DNA of 42,553 nucleotides, from IMG/VR virus record IMGVR_UViG_3300047481_003086, positions 1 to 42,553 of that record. One strand, written 5' to 3'. The DNA is from a virus. Of the stretch, positions 1-6,827 are shown in pieces. A program made the translations under genes and the position numbers. The notes under the pieces are model-generated. The model saw only the letters and a list, made by a program, of their open reading frames with translations. It had not been told where the DNA came from and made no database searches. Each line of letters opens with the position of its first letter. Position 1 is the stretch's first letter.

Positions 1-513
1 ATGACTGATAAAGATGTAACGGTGTTTCTCGACATGGATGGTGTTCTCTGCACATTTGAAGAGGATTTCATCAGATTGACCGGTAAACACCCTGATGTAT
101 ATGAAGAAGAGTTTGGCGAAAAGAAATACTGGAATTTCATTCTTGACCAAGGTTCAAGTTTTTGGGAGAAACTGACTCCTACCCCAGATATGGAAGAACT
201 TAAATCATATGTGTTCTCACATTTCCTGAGAATTGGTATCTTAAGCAGCTCAAGCAAGAAAAACCACGGGTCAAATGTGGTTAAACAGGGTAAGCTGAAG
301 TGGTTAAAAAATCATGGATTCTTAGACAAGATACCGAACAACAATGTAATAATCGTTGATTCAGCTCAAGATAAAAAACGTCATGCTTGGAACAACAAAA
401 TTTTGGTGGATGATTATGATAAGAATGTAAAGTCTTGGGTCGGTGCAGGAGGAATCGGGATCTTACACAAGTCCGCTAGGAATTCTATAAAAGAACTATC
501 ACGCTATGCTTAA
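1..513 (+). CDS. HAD-superfamily 5'(3')-deoxyribonucleotidase-like protein
   Basis: Probably removes phosphate from (deoxy)nucleoside monophosphates in the cytoplasm and so adjusts the nucleotide pool. The N-terminus carries the HAD motif I DMDGVLCTF (Asp11 nucleophile, Asp13 acid/base). Mid-protein ILSSSSK fits motif II, and ILVDDYDKN near residue 136 fits the acidic motif IV. At 170 aa it is the usual size for the NT5C/phage nucleotidase family. The window begins exactly at its ATG, so its upstream signals cannot be seen. It overlaps the next gene by 8 bases, so the two are translationally coupled. Substrate preference is inferred from the family; a general HAD phosphatase is possible. Confidence 0.82.
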   Translation: MTDKDVTVFLDMDGVLCTFEEDFIRLTGKHPDVYEEEFGEKKYWNFILDQGSSFWEKLTPTPDMEELKSYVFSHFLRIGILSSSSKKNHGSNVVKQGKLKWLKNHGFLDKIPNNNVIIVDSAQDKKRHAWNNKILVDDYDKNVKSWVGAGGIGILHKSARNSIKELSRYA

Positions 514-1204
514 CCAACGGGTCTATAATCCAAAACTAAACCCAGCTATCTGGGATGAATCTGGCAACATCCACCCGGATGTTGCAGCACACCTGTTGAA
601 GATAGGCAAGGACTTCTATGCTGATGTAGAGCTTAAAGCTAAGCTCCAGGACGTAATTTTACTAGGCAGTTCAGCTAACTATAATTGGACCCCAGATAGC
701 GACATTGATATACATTTGGTCATAGACACAGATGAACTAGGGATGCCTGACGAGGAAACCACCGCAAACTACTTGGATGCTTTAAAATCTAAGTGGAACT
801 CTGACCACAATATCACCGTTAAGGGTCATAAAGTGGAAACATACATCCAAGACGTTGAGCACAAGACCCATGCCACGGGAATCTTTTCTTTATTAAAGAA
901 TCAGTGGTTGGTTAAACCCGTCCGGGAGAAGGTAGAATTGGATAGAGATTTGATAAAAAAGATGTTCGGAGAATACATCGGCAAGATAAACAAAGTAATA
1001 CAATCTCCCTCACCCGAAAAACTTAAAGCACTACTTGACGATATTTATCAAATGAGACAGAAAGGGCTTGACTCAAAGGGAGAATTAAGCACAGAAAATC
1101 TCGTCTTTAAACTTATCAGAAGTAAGGGGTATCTCGAAAAAATCCGTGAACTCAAGATTAAAATTTATGATAAGGGTGTAAGCTTGAATGAACGTCGAAA
1201 ATGA
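506..1204 (+). CDS. Pol-beta-superfamily nucleotidyltransferase
   Basis: A 232-aa protein with the signature of the Pol-beta-like nucleotidyltransferase fold: LLGSSANYNW (residues 52-61) followed by PDSDIDIHL, in which Asp66 and Asp68 are the expected metal-binding carboxylates. Such enzymes transfer a nucleotide from NTP to a protein, RNA or small molecule; the acceptor here is unknown. The C-terminal half is helical and charged. The ATG lies inside the end of the preceding nucleotidase gene, so both probably belong to one operon. It could be a MNT-like AMP-transferase or an antibiotic-type nucleotidyltransferase relative; the sequence does not decide. Confidence 0.75.
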   Translation: MLNQRVYNPKLNPAIWDESGNIHPDVAAHLLKIGKDFYADVELKAKLQDVILLGSSANYNWTPDSDIDIHLVIDTDELGMPDEETTANYLDALKSKWNSDHNITVKGHKVETYIQDVEHKTHATGIFSLLKNQWLVKPVREKVELDRDLIKKMFGEYIGKINKVIQSPSPEKLKALLDDIYQMRQKGLDSKGELSTENLVFKLIRSKGYLEKIRELKIKIYDKGVSLNERRK

Positions 1205-1300: not shown

Positions 1301-1795
1301 ATGGCTGACTTACTACAATCAAACGAGATCTTCTACTCAAGTTTTGAGCCGAAGGTTCAGAACAGATTTATCATGTATCTCGACGGAATCCCATCATTCC
1401 TAATCAAGAAGTGTGACCGACCAAAGCCAAACTCCGTGAAGAAAGTTTTGGACCATATCAATCTCCAGCGTTACTACAAGGGTAAGACCGTATGGGACCC
1501 AATCACCATCGCTCTCTACGACCCAATCGCTCCGTCCGGTGCTCAAGCAGTCATGGAATGGGTTCGCTTACACCACGAGTCAGTGACCGGTCGCGACGGA
1601 TATGCCGATTTCTACAAGAAGGATGTCACCATCAATGTGTTAGGCCCAGTCGGAGACAAGGTCGAGGAATGGACGCTCAAGGGCGCATGGATCAGCGGAG
1701 CCACAAACTTCGGAACACTGGAATGGTCAAACGACGGCGACCATATTCCGATTGAAATGGAACTCACTTACGATTACGCAATTTTACAGTTCTAA
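1301..1795 (+). CDS. Tail tube protein (T4 gp19-like)
   Basis: A 164-aa major tail tube subunit of a contractile tail. Features of the gp19 family include an N-terminal FEPKVQNRFIMYLDGIPSFL segment, a central domain with HHESVTGRDG, and a C-terminal strand region ending near the stop with YDYAILQF. Length matches T4 gp19 (163 aa). Subunits stack as hexameric rings through which DNA passes. It sits upstream of the chaperone and tape measure genes, as expected in a tail module. The start has a clear AAGGAA ribosome binding site. A late-type motif lies upstream and a hairpin terminator downstream, so it may be made as a separate abundant transcript. Confidence 0.92.
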   Translation: MADLLQSNEIFYSSFEPKVQNRFIMYLDGIPSFLIKKCDRPKPNSVKKVLDHINLQRYYKGKTVWDPITIALYDPIAPSGAQAVMEWVRLHHESVTGRDGYADFYKKDVTINVLGPVGDKVEEWTLKGAWISGATNFGTLEWSNDGDHIPIEMELTYDYAILQF

Positions 1796-1901: not shown

Positions 1902-2297
1902 ATGAATAAACTGAATCTAAAATCCCTAATAAAGTCTATTATCAAAGAATCTATAACAGAGGCCAATCGAGGAAATTTTAATATCCAATCGACAGTAGCT
2001 AAAGAATTGGGTGCTTTTAAAAAGGTGGTATCTTTAATAGATAGAAAAATAAGAGATTCATTGATAGGAAAACCAATGACAGGAGAGAAGGTATCTGGAG
2101 GAGATCCCTATGACAGAAACGCCCGCAGAAAATCAAAATCCACAACAATAAAAGACGTAAATGTAGAAATAAGCTGGAAATCTAAGAAAGAGTTTGGGTC
2201 GGCGGACAAAAATTCTGACAACCACCTTTATCTATATGTTTATGCTAAATCCGACGATGTGGATGCCGGAGAAGTAATATTTAGCGATTATGTATAA
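1902..2297 (+). CDS. Unknown late protein with capsid-targeting-like N-terminus
   Basis: A 131-aa basic protein not recognised as any family. The ATG at 1902 is preferred over the upstream in-frame start at 1752, which lies inside the tail tube gene and upstream of the hairpin terminator. The first 16 residues (LKSLIKSIIKE) form an amphipathic helix ending in I-K-E (residues 14-16). This matches the I/L-x-E pattern that the T4 gp21 protease cleaves in head proteins that carry a capsid-targeting sequence. A related peptide occurs in the products at 2300 and 25456. The rest is lysine- and serine-rich. A late-type motif lies directly upstream, and the nucleotidyltransferase gene follows after 2 bases. 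Packaging into the head is an inference. Confidence 0.65.
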   Translation: MNKLNLKSLIKSIIKESITEANRGNFNIQSTVAKELGAFKKVVSLIDRKIRDSLIGKPMTGEKVSGGDPYDRNARRKSKSTTIKDVNVEISWKSKKEFGSADKNSDNHLYLYVYAKSDDVDAGEVIFSDYV

Positions 2298-2299
2298 TA

Positions 2300-3169
2300 A
2301 TGAAAGTCTTTGCTATATACCCAGGTCGATTCCACCCTTTTCATAAAGGGCATAAAGGTGTATACGATTGGTTATCTGCAAAATTCGGACAAGAATCGGT
2401 TTACATTACAATGACTGGAGTTACCGACCCAATAAAATCTCCGTTCACATTTGAGGAACGGAAGAAGATGGTTGGGTTGACCGGTGTAGACCCGACCCAT
2501 GTAATTCAAGTCACAAATAATTACAATTTAGCTCCTCTTGTAAATCAGTTACCGATTGACATCAACAAGGACGCAATATTCTTCACCGTATCACAGAAGG
2601 ATATGTCTGACGACCCACGATTTAAAAGTTTCACCAAGAAAGACGGTTCTCCATCATACCTTCAGCTTCTACCCAAGGATTCAAAGGAAATCAAACCCGC
2701 GATAACACATGGGTATTTAATTGTGGCTCCAACGACTACATTTAAGGTTTTAGGTAAAGACGCAAGTTCTGCATCTGAACTCAGGAGCGACTTCATCGGA
2801 CTAGACGATGAGAGTAAAAAGAGGTTTGTGACAGACTTGTTCGGTAAATTCGATCAAGAGGTTTACGACATTATGAACAGTAAATTAAACCGTCAACTTA
2901 AAGAGATGATTAAGCGGATAATAAAGGAAGACTTCGACTCCGATATATTGGGCCTTACCAAGAAACGGGATACGATGGATTACGAAATTGAGAAACTACG
3001 TCTCAAGAAATCTCTCCTTGCAATGAAAACTCATGTTGAAAACATGAAAACGATAGAACAGAATGGTGGGGATATAGAGAATGCAAAGAAACAGTTGGAT
3101 GCCATGAAAAAAGATGTGGATGTTGCTAAGAAGAGGGTATCTGCTGCGGGAATAAAACGGACTGCTTAA
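2300..3169 (+). CDS. Cytidylyltransferase-fold nucleotidyltransferase (NadM-like) with coiled-coil tail
   Basis: The N-terminal domain (about 1-190) has the two hallmark motifs of the HxGH nucleotidyltransferase superfamily: YPGRFHPFHKGH at residues 7-18 and SSASELR at 156-162. These enzymes join AMP or CMP to a small phosphate; the best-known phage members are NMN adenylyltransferases for NAD recycling, so an NAD role is the leading guess. Residues 197-212 contain MIKRIIKED, resembling the N-terminal peptides of the products at 1902 and 25456. After it comes a charged helical, probably coiled-coil segment to residue 289. The gene follows the 1902 gene by 2 bases and lies inside the tail block, which is odd for a metabolic enzyme. 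The substrate is not proven. Confidence 0.8.
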   Translation: MKVFAIYPGRFHPFHKGHKGVYDWLSAKFGQESVYITMTGVTDPIKSPFTFEERKKMVGLTGVDPTHVIQVTNNYNLAPLVNQLPIDINKDAIFFTVSQKDMSDDPRFKSFTKKDGSPSYLQLLPKDSKEIKPAITHGYLIVAPTTTFKVLGKDASSASELRSDFIGLDDESKKRFVTDLFGKFDQEVYDIMNSKLNRQLKEMIKRIIKEDFDSDILGLTKKRDTMDYEIEKLRLKKSLLAMKTHVENMKTIEQNGGDIENAKKQLDAMKKDVDVAKKRVSAAGIKRTA

Positions 3170-3224
3170 TCATAATAAAAAAACAAAAAATCCCACCCAT
3201 AGACTATGTATAGTCAAATAGTTT

Positions 3225-4073
3225 ATGGATAACACCGACCAAACAATCTCTATTAAGAGGCCAGTTTCAACCAACGACAACGCAGTTAAACTTGCTCCGA
3301 AACAATCGGAAAAACCCAAGTATCCTTCCGAAGTCATAGGGCTTCCAAGCGACGGATACTTCTATTCCGATTCGACGCCGTTACAACAAGGAACGGTCGA
3401 GATAAAGTATATGACTGCCCGCGAGGAAGATATACTTACTTCTCAGAACCTAATCAAAAAAGGTGTAGTGTTGGAAAAACTTCTTGAGAGCCTCATTTTA
3501 TCTCCGGGCGTAAAAGTTGACGACCTCTTGATTGGTGACAAAAATGCTTTGTTCATCGCATCCAGACGATTGGCTTACGGTGATAGTTACGGCCCGCTCG
3601 ACATGAAGTGTCCTAAGTGTGGCAAGGATAATAAGTGCACGATTGACTTATCACTGATTAAGAACAAGGAATTTGATTTTTCAAAATACGAAAAGGGGAC
3701 AAATCGGTTTGAATTTAAATTGCCTGCGAGTAAGAAGGTTGTCACATACAAACTCTTGACTCATAAGGATGAACAGTCTATTGAACAGGAGATAGCCAGT
3801 GTTAATAAGGCCACAAAATCAGGAACTTCTCCAGAAGTAACCACTCGTCTAAAGAGGATGATAACCGCTATAGATGGTGACGATGACCGCCAAACAATCA
3901 TCAAGTTTATCGACACAGAACTTCTATCCCGTGACAGTTTAGCGTTAAGGAATCAAGTTAAAGATAATACACCGGATATTGACATGGCTTTCGATTTTGT
4001 TTGTTCCGAGTGTTCTCACGAAGAAAGAGTGGGTGTGCCGATGGAGGTATCTTTCTTTTGGCCTAACACCTGA
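3225..4073 (+). CDS. Tail/baseplate assembly chaperone (T4 gp26-like), zero-frame product
   Basis: A 282-aa protein resembling the T4 gp26 baseplate-assembly family. It has LPSDGYFY near residue 40, the REEDILTS block near 66-73 and the DLLIGDKNALFIASRRLAYG block around 100-119. Two Cys pairs, CPKC (129/132) and CSEC (260/263), probably bind zinc. It lies just upstream of the tape measure gene, the usual place of tail assembly chaperones. The zero frame ends at TGA 4071-4073. A +1 slip at 4056-4059 would extend it by about 70 residues (see next entries). No late motif precedes it directly, so it may be read through from 1888. Confidence 0.8.
   Translation: MDNTDQTISIKRPVSTNDNAVKLAPKQSEKPKYPSEVIGLPSDGYFYSDSTPLQQGTVEIKYMTAREEDILTSQNLIKKGVVLEKLLESLILSPGVKVDDLLIGDKNALFIASRRLAYGDSYGPLDMKCPKCGKDNKCTIDLSLIKNKEFDFSKYEKGTNRFEFKLPASKKVVTYKLLTHKDEQSIEQEIASVNKATKSGTSPEVTTRLKRMITAIDGDDDRQTIIKFIDTELLSRDSLALRNQVKDNTPDIDMAFDFVCSECSHEERVGVPMEVSFFWPNT
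4056..4059 (+). promoter_or_regulatory. Predicted +1 ribosomal frameshift site (TTT-T)
   Basis: In the zero frame the codons read TTC TTT TGG. A Phe tRNA in the P site on TTT (4056-4058) can slip one base forward and still pair with TTT (4057-4059), after which reading continues at GGC (4060) in the +1 frame. The zero-frame stop is four codons downstream. Chaperone genes directly before the tape measure gene commonly use such shifts. Confidence 0.6.
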
Positions 4074-4269
4074 ATACCAAGTAGCCCTTCATAAACAAAT
4101 CTTTGAACTGAGTTATTTCAGCCAAGGTGCGGTAAATGTGTCCATCGCCTACGATATACCCATCCACCTTAGAAACTTCTATTACAAGCAGTTGTCAGAG
4201 ATTAAAACCAGAGAAAATAAGCAATCTCAACCGGAACCCTCAAGCAAGAAGATTGCTAGACCGTTTTAA
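4060..4269 (+). CDS. Frameshift extension of tail assembly chaperone
   Basis: The +1 frame after the slip site stays open for 69 codons with protein-like content: GLTPEYQVALHKQIFEL, then IPIHLRNFYYKQLSEIK and a polar tail ending IARPF. The frame is also open upstream from 3979, but that part reads as an out-of-frame shadow of the chaperone and no plausible start codon lies between 4060 and the conserved segment. Fusion to the 3225 product by a +1 shift is therefore the simplest reading. The layout matches lambda gpG/gpGT-type chaperones. The fused product would be about 347 aa. An undetected internal start is the alternative. Confidence 0.6.
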   Translation, partial: GLTPEYQVALHKQIFELSYFSQGAVNVSIAYDIPIHLRNFYYKQLSEIKTRENKQSQPEPSSKKIARPF

Positions 4270-4330
4270 TCGGTGATAAGTATCCACCTATTTTCTATAA
4301 AACATAACCGATAAAAGTTGGGTTAGTCTA

Positions 4331-4349: not shown

Positions 4350-6827
4350 ATGGCAGACACCGCAACAGATACAGAGAAAAGTTCAGCAAAGACAGCTGAA
4401 CACATTAATAAACAACGTGAAGCCATGCGCGATGTGGTTGATATGGCACGGAGGCTCTCTGTAGAATACGATGAACACACCGGAGCAGTCGGTTCCATAG
4501 TCAAAGATTTAACCAAGATAGAAAAACTTCAAGCACATATAAAGAACTTAGCATCCGAATCAAGGTCTATTGAGCTAAATATGGCAAATATCTTCAGAGA
4601 TCAAGTTTCTCTTGAGAAAGATTCTGACAATAGTTTACAGAATTCGATTAGTTTACGAACAAAGATATTGGATATTGAGGATAAAATATCGAAAGCGAAG
4701 TCAAAAGAAGCTAAAAAACTCGGAAAGGATAAAGTTGATTTAGAGAAACGACTCACCACGGAGAATTTGTATAGAAAGAATATAGAAGAAAGAATAAAGT
4801 TGAATTTAAAAGAATTTAATAACTCTAAGGAAATGCTAGAAAACGGCCGTCGCGAAACATCAATCCTTGATAAGAAATTAAATAATCATAAACTCATAAA
4901 AACTGTTTCGGAGAAGATTGGAATTTCCACGGCTATAAACACCTTCAAGACCGGCGCGTGGATTAAACTTTTAGAAGAAGCTTGGCAGATTTTTAGAAAA
5001 ATGGACGATGCTTTATTCTCTGTTAGAAAACATTTAGGAACATTTCGTGGTGAATCTAAGGAAATAGAAAACACAACAAAATCGCTGGCGATGGATTTCG
5101 CAGGAGTGGGTGTGACGTTTGAGATAGCAGCGACCACAATGAATTCGATTGTAGATGACTTTGGCAGACTGTCATCGCATACGAAAAACATGGCTGCCAC
5201 GGTAGCCACGTTTTCATCACAACTCGGAATCTCGGAGAAAACATCCACCGGGCTATTGAAAAATCTGGCTCAAGTTTCGGGAAAAACATCAGACTCAATG
5301 GAGGGTATGATAGGATTTACAAAGTCTCTGTCAAACGCAGCGGGTGTATCTTTACCAAAGGTTATGGAAGATATAGCCGGCGCATCAGATTCCGTCCGAG
5401 CAAATTTTCGTGGAAACACAACGGAACTAATCAAGGCCACCGTCGAAGCCAGGAGACTCGGATTGAGCCTTGAAAGCATGGGAAAAACTTCGGAATCACT
5501 CCTAGACTTCAACTCATCTGTAAATGCGGAAATGGAGGCAAGCGTTTTGTTAGGAAAAAACTTAAATCTCAATGCTGCTCGCAGAGCAGCATTCAGCGGT
5601 GACTTGGTTAAACAAAATGAGGAAATTCTCAAAGTTTTAAAATCCGTAGGAGATTTTGAGAAATTGAATGCGTTCCAGAAAAAATCCTTGGCAGCAGCTT
5701 TAGGGAAGAGTGTAGAAGAACTACAGTCTATGAACCAACGAGAACAAGAAAGATTGTGGATTCTACAAAAGGGAACTAAAGAACAGAAGCAATTATTGGC
5801 TGACTATGAAAAGCAAAAGAAGCTCCGAGAGGGGGAGGCTAAAGATCTAGGAAAGATAGCAGAAGATCGGATTAAGCAGGAAAATCACCAGCAAAGGGTA
5901 AACGCTTTACAACAACAGTTTCATAAATTGATAATGGAACTGTCGGGGCCAATACTAGATGCGATTGAACCGTTAATGGCACTCGCGGTTAAATGGATGC
6001 CTACGATATTTGAAGGATTTTCTAAACTGTTAATTCCCGCGACAATCTTATTTACGGTTTTTAAGTTAATATCCAGTCCAATAGACACCATTCTTTTGAA
6101 ATTGATGATGTGGAGCAAATATTTTGACAAGTTTATGTTATTTGTCGGAAATCTAGCCAGCCGCATGGCTTTTCTTGGGAAAGCTGTGGCATGGGTCGCC
6201 ACGGTATTCGGTAAGTGGCTGAACCCTATAGGATGGGTAATAACAGCATTTCAATTAATATACAGTTTATTTAAGAGGTTCTCAGATATAGAATTCGTTA
6301 AAGGAGACTGGACTGGAAATATATGGAAAGGTATCGAAGCAATAGGTGGTGCTTTATATGACACTTTAATAAAGCCGTTTGTTGACGTATACGACTGGAT
6401 AAAAAAGAAGTTAATGGGGAATTCTCCATCCGAAATAGGAACCGGAATAGTAAACGGTTTAATTGCGGTAGGTTCCATGATATTGAAGGCACTGACATAT
6501 CCATTCACATCCGCATTCACATTTATAACCGAACTGTTCGGAAAAATTCCTGAATTTATAACAAGCGTCTTTAAACGTGGTTTTGATTTCGTGACCAAAC
6601 TTCCTGGGATGGGGTTGTTGACTAAAGCGATAGACACTTTCAGTGGAAATAAAACTGCGGATGTAAATCAGAAGGTTGAAACCGTCCAAACAAAACAAGA
6701 CGACACCAACCGACTAATTTTGGAAAAGTTAACAGAACTAACAAACTTGATGAAATCCGGTGGAATCGCAATTAATATGGATGGAAGACGTGTTAGTGAA
6801 GCACTAGCACACGCATCCTCACGATAA
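4350..6827 (+). CDS. Tail tape measure protein
   Basis: An 825-aa protein with the composition expected of a tape measure. Residues 1-180 are charged heptad-rich helices (coiled coil), followed by a long helical middle with repeated Ser/Ala/Gly segments (about 230-400). Further coiled coil leads into hydrophobic segments around 530-640, such as WMPTIFEGFSKLLIPATILF, that may cross the membrane during DNA entry. It ends with a charged coiled coil. It follows the frameshifted chaperone and precedes the baseplate genes. As a rule of thumb, 1.5 angstrom per residue predicts a tail of roughly 120 nm at most. No lysozyme or peptidase motif was seen. Confidence 0.85.
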   Translation: MADTATDTEKSSAKTAEHINKQREAMRDVVDMARRLSVEYDEHTGAVGSIVKDLTKIEKLQAHIKNLASESRSIELNMANIFRDQVSLEKDSDNSLQNSISLRTKILDIEDKISKAKSKEAKKLGKDKVDLEKRLTTENLYRKNIEERIKLNLKEFNNSKEMLENGRRETSILDKKLNNHKLIKTVSEKIGISTAINTFKTGAWIKLLEEAWQIFRKMDDALFSVRKHLGTFRGESKEIENTTKSLAMDFAGVGVTFEIAATTMNSIVDDFGRLSSHTKNMAATVATFSSQLGISEKTSTGLLKNLAQVSGKTSDSMEGMIGFTKSLSNAAGVSLPKVMEDIAGASDSVRANFRGNTTELIKATVEARRLGLSLESMGKTSESLLDFNSSVNAEMEASVLLGKNLNLNAARRAAFSGDLVKQNEEILKVLKSVGDFEKLNAFQKKSLAAALGKSVEELQSMNQREQERLWILQKGTKEQKQLLADYEKQKKLREGEAKDLGKIAEDRIKQENHQQRVNALQQQFHKLIMELSGPILDAIEPLMALAVKWMPTIFEGFSKLLIPATILFTVFKLISSPIDTILLKLMMWSKYFDKFMLFVGNLASRMAFLGKAVAWVATVFGKWLNPIGWVITAFQLIYSLFKRFSDIEFVKGDWTGNIWKGIEAIGGALYDTLIKPFVDVYDWIKKKLMGNSPSEIGTGIVNGLIAVGSMILKALTYPFTSAFTFITELFGKIPEFITSVFKRGFDFVTKLPGMGLLTKAIDTFSGNKTADVNQKVETVQTKQDDTNRLILEKLTELTNLMKSGGIAINMDGRRVSEALAHASSR

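Follow-up and report, generated by a model that had tools for sequence, protein, structure and literature searches.

The window studied here, a stretch of 42,553 nucleotides of viral DNA (IMG/VR record IMGVR_UViG_3300047481_003086), very probably encodes a gp26-family tail assembly chaperone, of which +1 frameshifting yields two forms. Such a frameshift on a gp26-type tail chaperone, as put forward in the original prediction, is by far the best reading of a conserved slip site and frame relation and of in-frame fusions present in one relative, L300, and in T4 gp51. What the sequences themselves show are both frames and their relation, the conserved slip site, the location ahead of the tape measure gene and the fusions in L300 and T4 gp51; from these we infer slippage as such, how often and by which tRNA step it occurs, and the role as a chaperone. 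Most ribosomes would synthesise the short gp26-like protein and terminate at 4073. In a minority of them peptidyl-tRNA-Phe would occupy UUU (4056-4058) in the P site with UGG in the A site; it would then move by +1 onto the overlapping UUU and GLTPEYQ... would be read up to 4269. The long form would thus comprise the short form and an extra helical domain of about 69 residues. If lambda gpG/gpGT is taken as a guide, the short form may coat the tape measure protein while the rarer long form may recruit tail tube subunits.

The window locus and its two frames

The layout expected for the locus (Table 1) is clearly borne out: the gp26-like frame is an ORF ending at 4073, the +1 frame with GLTPEYQ... 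stays open from 4060 to a TAA ending at 4269, TTT-T is found at 4056-4059 four codons ahead of the zero-frame stop, and the ORF of the tape measure protein starts at 4350. The 3' end of the gp26-like ORF reads TCT TTC TTT TGG CCT AAC ACC TGA. Its product matches PF12322 (T4 baseplate protein) with an E value of 9.4e-17 and 61.9 bits, compared to a curated cut-off of 24.5, as well as phrog_150 (baseplate hub; E 6e-17). It is the single PF12322/gp26 copy in the window record, which is possibly a fragment. The second part, i.e. the +1 extension, gives no match to Pfam and PHROG at E values up to 1.

Table 1. Coordinates of the features of the window locus and of the two gp26-type ORFs of L300
Feature	Position	Strand	Remarks
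Deoxyribonucleotidase-like gene	window 1-513		adjoining or inside the tail module, near the tail tube gene
Nucleotidyltransferase-like gene	window 506-1204		adjoining or inside the tail module, near the tail tube gene
Tail tube protein gene (gp19-like), upstream	1301..1795	+	phrog_4542 E 4.7e-21; PF06841 below cut-off
Cytidylyltransferase-like gene	window 2300-3169		adjoining or inside the tail module, near the tail tube gene
gp26-like putative tail assembly chaperone, short form	3225..4073	+	282 aa, zero frame, ends ...SFFWPNT*
Slip region TTC TTT TGG	4053..4061	+	shift most likely on TTT-T, 4056-4059
Zero-frame stop TGA	4071..4073	+	four codons past the FF pair
+1-frame extension	4060..4269	+	69 codons and TAA (4267-4269); predicted C-terminal domain of the long form, GLTPEYQ...
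Tail tape measure protein gene, directly downstream	4350..6827	+	825 aa; phrog_167 E 6.6e-12, phrog_991 E 1.7e-10
L300 short gp26 ORF	open stretch 1980-2846		ends NFFWPNVSDN, no extension
L300 fused ORF	open stretch 2855-3772		gp26-like part and second domain in one frame; p1 E 2.9e-35, p2 E 2e-24

Among sequenced phages, Listeria phage LIS04 has, as observed for the window, the tail tube gene upstream and the tape measure gene directly downstream. The order is sheath, "tail completion protein", gp26 and tape measure in Flavobacterium phage immuto, and sheath, tube, gp26 and "putative tail protein" in Bacillus phage SP-15. In the -1 jumbo phages and Rhodothermus phage RM378 the stretch examined contains no annotated tape measure gene behind the pair; hence, the position ahead of the tape measure gene is not family-wide. 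We would like to note that none of five public annotations (L160, L161, L164, L251 and L254) contains a joined CDS: the second domain is annotated as a short or separate hypothetical protein in immuto, Microcystis phage Mel-JY01 and SP-15, and is missing in LIS04 and PA5oct.

The second frame and the slip site among relatives

Scans of IMG/VR with each of the two parts yielded 211 and 84 relatives, from which the best 80 of each were kept, resulting in 159 loci. In the 155 sequences of these first scans which harbour both parts (window included) the second part lies in the +1 frame in 151 cases and in the -1 frame in four. Further scans (one of them represented by the best 80 of 170 relatives) and phage records enlarged the set to 251 sequences. 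A gp26 match is present in 250 of these, the exception at that threshold being the T4 stretch (L167); the gp26 stop lies inside 246 sequences, and 245 show an HMM match of the second part, with 214 matches in the +1 frame (213 at E <1e-3) and 31 in the -1 frame (26 at E <1e-3). Six weak second parts (L163, L165, L166, L169, L170 and L171; E 0.003 to 6) were assigned by position and reading rather than by HMM. A profile search with the first part alone (best 80 of at least 595), together with 16 GTDB contigs, added 95 loci, and here the second part is found in 93 of the 94 loci containing a stop, 92 times in the +1 and once in the -1 frame. Two of the GTDB contigs, binned as Woesearchaeota (L269) and Thaumarchaeota (L276), carry the gene with the usual overlap and are probably misbinned phage contigs. 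IMG/VR scans with the SP-15, XacN1 and Atu_ph07 proteins returned only these proteins themselves or nothing.

All sets pooled, with the window included and partly made up of best-80 lists, comprise 338 loci with 241 distinct junctions and 179 clusters (90% identity). Of the loci, 306 have the second domain in the +1 frame, 32 in the -1 frame and none in frame 0; the clusters split into 165 with +1 and 14 with -1. Since the scans share loci and one set was selected with the second part, fairer figures are provided by the clusters and by the 93 of 94 loci. Left out of the counts were L066 (no p2 match, the locus ending about 24 bases past the gp26 match), L284, which has no stop in the locus, and four stop-less sequences of the enlarged set, while L300 was counted apart from the 338 loci. 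In-frame fusion as the usual state of the two domains is ruled out (0 of 338 loci), its sole case being the second gene of L300. A comparison of homologues, proposed as a check on whether they fuse the frames or keep the slip site, reveals that slip site and frame relation are kept in 241 distinct junctions, mostly in the +1 direction. Most of the loci stem from metagenome assemblies, which might raise the suspicion of an assembly or sequencing error or of a decayed gene. Yet, the overlapping second frame recurs in all these junctions and also in phage isolates with sequenced genomes (e.g. immuto, Mel-JY01, SP-15 and LIS04), and a decayed gene is at odds with protein-level constraint in the second frame, so that the probability of such an artefact appears negligible. 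This constraint is visible in the substitutions of the second domain, which amount to 4,702, 3,230 and 10,616 at codon positions 1, 2 and 3, respectively (403 non-independent pairs of 70-92% identity). Judged from these codon patterns the second domain is conserved as a protein, and the sensible protein content anticipated for the +1 frame is confirmed by the excess of third-position substitutions across relatives.

The shift is located at the Phe-Phe pair ending gp26 (xFFWP or FFYP) or, in members with CTT|T, at Phe-Leu. Alignment A1 (27 rows) shows no variation at either F277 or F278. Among the 165 +1 clusters the second codon and the following base are TTT|T in 151, CTT|T in nine and TTT|C in three, the remaining two being read as slips within the same T/C stretch. 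In a first set of 104 clusters, wherever the second residue is Phe, its codon is TTT in 88 of 88 +1 clusters compared to 709 of 927 other Phe codons of the same genes, a bias with a binomial probability of 5.7e-11 if related clusters are treated as independent. This set includes 13 -1 clusters, of which 12 have TTC TTC as the pair, compared to 53/174 TTC, again with related clusters treated as independent. The sites of all 14 -1 clusters are A AAT TTC (10), T TTT TTC (3) and T TTT TTT (1), the first of them belonging to a marine -1 clade and the latter two to jumbo phage and megaphage relatives. Within the marine -1 clade the base ahead of AAT stays A though its codon specifies Thr, Ala or Val. 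These differing sites of the -1 loci would fit -1 slippage. The distance from the FF pair to the stop is four codons in 73 and six codons in 23 of 104 clusters. A conserved slippery sequence, by which frameshifted chaperones of the G/GT type are recognised, is hence present at the overlap.

The junctions of individual phages, among them 8 inspected of 64 phage records, extend this picture. Those with +1 are TTT TTT TGG in Mel-JY01 and RM378, TTT CTT TGG in immuto, TTT TTT CAC in SP-15, TTC TTT CGT in Streptococcus phage GXN1, TTT CTA TTC in LR756508 and TTT TTT AGT in LIS04, the last being interpreted as slippage at its first TTT. The -1 members are XacN1, LR756511 (595-kb), RAS14, Phosso, PA5oct, Atu_ph07, XaC1, 121Q and CBB. 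Ten of the junctions, i.e. those of LIS04, RM378, Slicko01 and the seven -1 members from RAS14 to CBB, were read by eye. In the distant relative Slicko01, an Alishewanella phage (L260), no clear slip site was found; the first ORF ends without Phe-Phe and the +1 frame is open.

In most +1 clusters the A-site codon is UGG or UAC, and slippage of the P-site tRNA by +1 would allow good re-pairing in the main contexts UUU-U, CUU-U and UUU-C. Alternatively, transcriptional slippage on a T run could join the frames, as many relatives contain seven T in a row. The run of the window, however, comprises only four (TTCTTTTGG), the CTT|T members and GXN1 have three T at most, as does the marine -1 clade, and to our knowledge T runs this short do not cause polymerase slippage. 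With four or three T being presumably too few, we regard this explanation as highly improbable. Ribosomal slippage by -2 would reach the same frame and add one residue; that a -2 slip leads into the +1 frame is stated in an excerpt of PMC5009743, and the runs of seven T would permit re-pairing. Against this, a -2 slip would place tRNA-Phe on UCU in the window and tRNA-Leu on UUC in the CTT|T members, whereas +1 gives UUU in both, which renders it very unlikely.

A conserved stimulator of frameshifting was not found by analysing downstream folding and Shine-Dalgarno-like motifs in 104 clusters. The window does contain GGAGG 5' of its slip site, but only 3 of 91 +1 clusters and 0 of 13 -1 clusters show an SD-like 5-mer, and the candidate was rejected. 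Downstream RNA structure gives no strong signal, neither in +1 clusters (mean z -0.51 for 60 nt, n=91; -0.91 for 90 nt, n=90) nor in the 13 -1 clusters (mean z -0.98 and -1.29). Folding of the 60 nt upstream is slightly stronger than that of shuffled sequences (mean z -1.03; below -2 in 21 of 91).

It may further be argued that the second ORF specifies an independent small protein, translated from its own start codon or by reinitiation after the gp26 stop. The +1 frame of the window indeed offers TTG 3979, TTG 3997 and GTG 4033 as possible upstream starts, in contrast to the claim that this frame has no plausible start of its own, and for the window by itself a separate start is possible. Across the family the claim fares better: in 64 of 104 clusters the second frame is devoid of ATG, GTG and TTG between the stop preceding it and nucleotide 45 of the domain, although a rarer codon (e.g. 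ATT or CTG) is present in 62 of these 64. Some possible start exists in the other 40, with ATG in 7 of the 104 clusters and a start preceded by an SD-like 4-mer in 8, all of the latter being TTG. In 44 of 91 +1 clusters the alternative frame is closed at most five codons upstream of the shift point. Homologues with a separate start, named beforehand as the finding that would speak against a frameshift, are not general: TAATG overlapping the gp26 stop is seen in two megaphage loci (L163 and L171). Since both also have an open -1 frame and the -1 heptamer T TTT TTC, a fusion and a separately started C-domain are both possible there, as far as their sequences indicate. On the whole, conservation is seen for the slip codons but not for the starts, and the relatives avoiding the overlap (L300 and T4 gp51) make a fusion instead of a small protein. 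We therefore consider a separate protein unlikely and favour +1 frameshifting at the Phe-Phe pair.

Tandem copies, in-frame fusions and predicted folds

Of particular interest for the two-form reading is L300, which harbours two tandem gp26-type ORFs, both passing PF12322 (Table 1). Among 352 loci no other has two gp26-type ORFs, and no other combines both domains in a single ORF; L300 is also the sole locus of the 94 in the first-part-only set without a +1 or -1 second part. A long ORF from 3817 is in the position of the tape measure gene, an assignment made by position alone.

T4 likewise possesses two PF12322 genes, with matches covering residues 1-206 of 208 in gp26 and 1-201 of 249 in gp51. 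When PF12322 was run over 23 records, 21 gave matches, two in T4 and one in each of the other 20; immuto and Mel-JY01 gave none at that threshold and their gp26 was found by tblastn. Alignment A1 run over eight further records detected one copy in seven and two in the record of L300. As to a second PF12322 gene with an in-frame C-domain in the manner of T4, both the window record and the 173,817-base record holding L001 contain a single copy.

An alignment of the gp51 family (7 sequences) to eight jumbo phages with their frames joined has P 7.4e-7 and runs through the shifted part. Eight second parts read by eye entered the profile comparison, RM378 and Slicko01 not being used. The second domains of the marine group score 55.7 against those of the jumbo/Gram-positive/megaphage group (40 column shuffles gave 13.6 at best), and the C-part of gp51 scores 26.1 against the latter group (at best 13.8 in 40 shuffles). 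When matched directly to the marine domain, the C-part of T4 gp51 gives no significant score (0.39), and the family profile gives weak matches to the single T4 gp26 or gp51 sequences. T4 thus resembles the family in that both proteins belong to PF12322 and gp51 consists of an N-domain and a C-part aligning with the frameshifted domain of jumbo relatives. It differs in having two separate genes which are not directly ahead of the tape measure gene, and its gp51 C-part is tied to the domain of the window via those of the jumbo phages, the direct match not being significant. We would like to add that T4 gp26 still ends in EFFELL (TTC TTT GAG; minus strand of L167, about 4303-4330), possibly a remnant of an ancestral Phe-Phe junction.

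Structure prediction gave models with a pLDDT of 86.4 for the short form and of 80.3 for the +1-frame domain, the latter with three predicted helices. In a comparison of the short form with 351 chains (VIA) the top two were the HK97 tail chaperone 2ob9 and YqbN (3klu), which we take to be a tail chaperone relative; both reach Z 5.4, a chance arrangement being possible at Z under 8. Foldseek gave weak E values of 2.5 or worse for these two and no PDB match of the short form at E <0.001. The fold likeness of the modelled short form to the HK97 chaperone and YqbN is hence no more than suggestive. A fold search with the C-domain gave no match, which has no bearing either way. The position ahead of the tape measure gene, the two putative forms and the arrangements in T4 and L300 point to a tail assembly chaperone role. 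The chaperone had also been called zinc-containing; zinc pairs are no defining trait of the family, the first CxxC pair being missing in 17 of the 27 rows of A1.

Known tail chaperones and the probable history of shift direction

The slip quartet of the CTT|T members (immuto, L197 and others) is the same as in the E. coli release factor 2 gene prfB, which shifts by +1 at CUU-U. In contrast to prfB, the gp26 family has neither a stop codon in the A site nor a conserved SD-like stimulator. Among tail chaperones, the frameshifted type is widely conserved in long-tailed phages; a shift of -2 is reported for Mu. Excerpts of PMC5009743 give shifts of -1, -2 or +1 in different phages and name T4 as the exception. 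The +1 direction, which had been called unusual, is not unprecedented, a +1 shift being very likely in HSTV-2 (same excerpts). Lambda gpG/gpGT (-1) shares with the window locus a short and a rarer C-extended form and overlapping frames ahead of the tape measure gene; neither gpG nor gpGT is part of the mature virion (excerpt of PMC5009743). Differences are the +1 direction of the window, its PF12322 proteins and the longer N-part (282 aa), the two systems being likened by features other than a direct comparison with the gpG sequence. The chaperone of Vandenendeviridae and Andersonviridae (-1, GTTTTT; excerpt of PMC12846349) also has a T-rich slip site ending the short-form gene ahead of the tape measure gene, yet it shifts by -1 and is likened by its site, not by PF12322 kinship. 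The heptamer UUUUUUC of the putative -1 shift of SPP1 gp17.5/gp17.5* (excerpt of PMC6316719) is found in most -1 jumbo phage and megaphage members, SPP1 being a siphophage likened by heptamer and not by protein family.

The original prediction had further regarded gp26 as the T4-type counterpart of gpG/gpGT. The chaperone reading is supported by our analysis. T4-like tail chaperone genes made without frameshifting are said to have been described by Vladimirov et al. in 2022; with these genes published then, the idea of gp26 as the gpG-like counterpart is probably not new. The same authors are credited with one short and one long fused gene in T4-like phages in an excerpt of PMC10885494, and with poly-T -1 signals in T4-like TAC-N genes in an excerpt of PMC12846349, which also mentions a conserved -1 site in Vandenendeviridae. 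The general kind is thus known, and some -1 members of the gp26 family may have been published. A +1 member of the gp26 family, changes of direction at one site and the duplication in L300 were not found in the literature searched, the scope of which did not include the text of Vladimirov et al. 2022; these three appear to be new.

To follow the shift direction, a gp26 tree was calculated without the slip columns from 52 rows kept of 113, RM378 being left out due to its long branch. On this tree the direction label needs three changes, two of which are forced by well-supported branches, and none of 200 bootstrap trees allows a single change. The marine -1 clade (100/99) is nested in a 38-row group (100/99) which is otherwise +1. 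A quick tree of all 113 rows also needs three changes with one forced, and carries a warning of long branches that meet. The gp26 trees are unrooted and give no order in time for the two directions.

Taken together, we think it rather probable that the gp26 family is one chaperone lineage which kept its two forms but not its decoding rule. A near-invariant Phe-Phe pair would have seen no fewer than two changes of direction, with +1 occurring at UUU-U or CUU-U and -1 at A AAU UUC, U UUU UUC or U UUU UUU. Duplication and in-frame fusion would have freed a minimum of two lineages, L300 and the T4-type, from frameshifting. For public records, the analysis corrects the annotation of a C-domain which in those inspected is truncated, labelled hypothetical or absent. 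A single site and a single product obtained with +1, with -1 and with no frameshift would constitute a large natural series, on which the sequence rules of bacterial +1 slippage are testable using homologous proteins. The window locus and its relatives link the T4 exception to the frameshifting rule: if the proposed history is true, T4, the stated exception to frameshifting in tail chaperones, would descend from a frameshifting ancestor.
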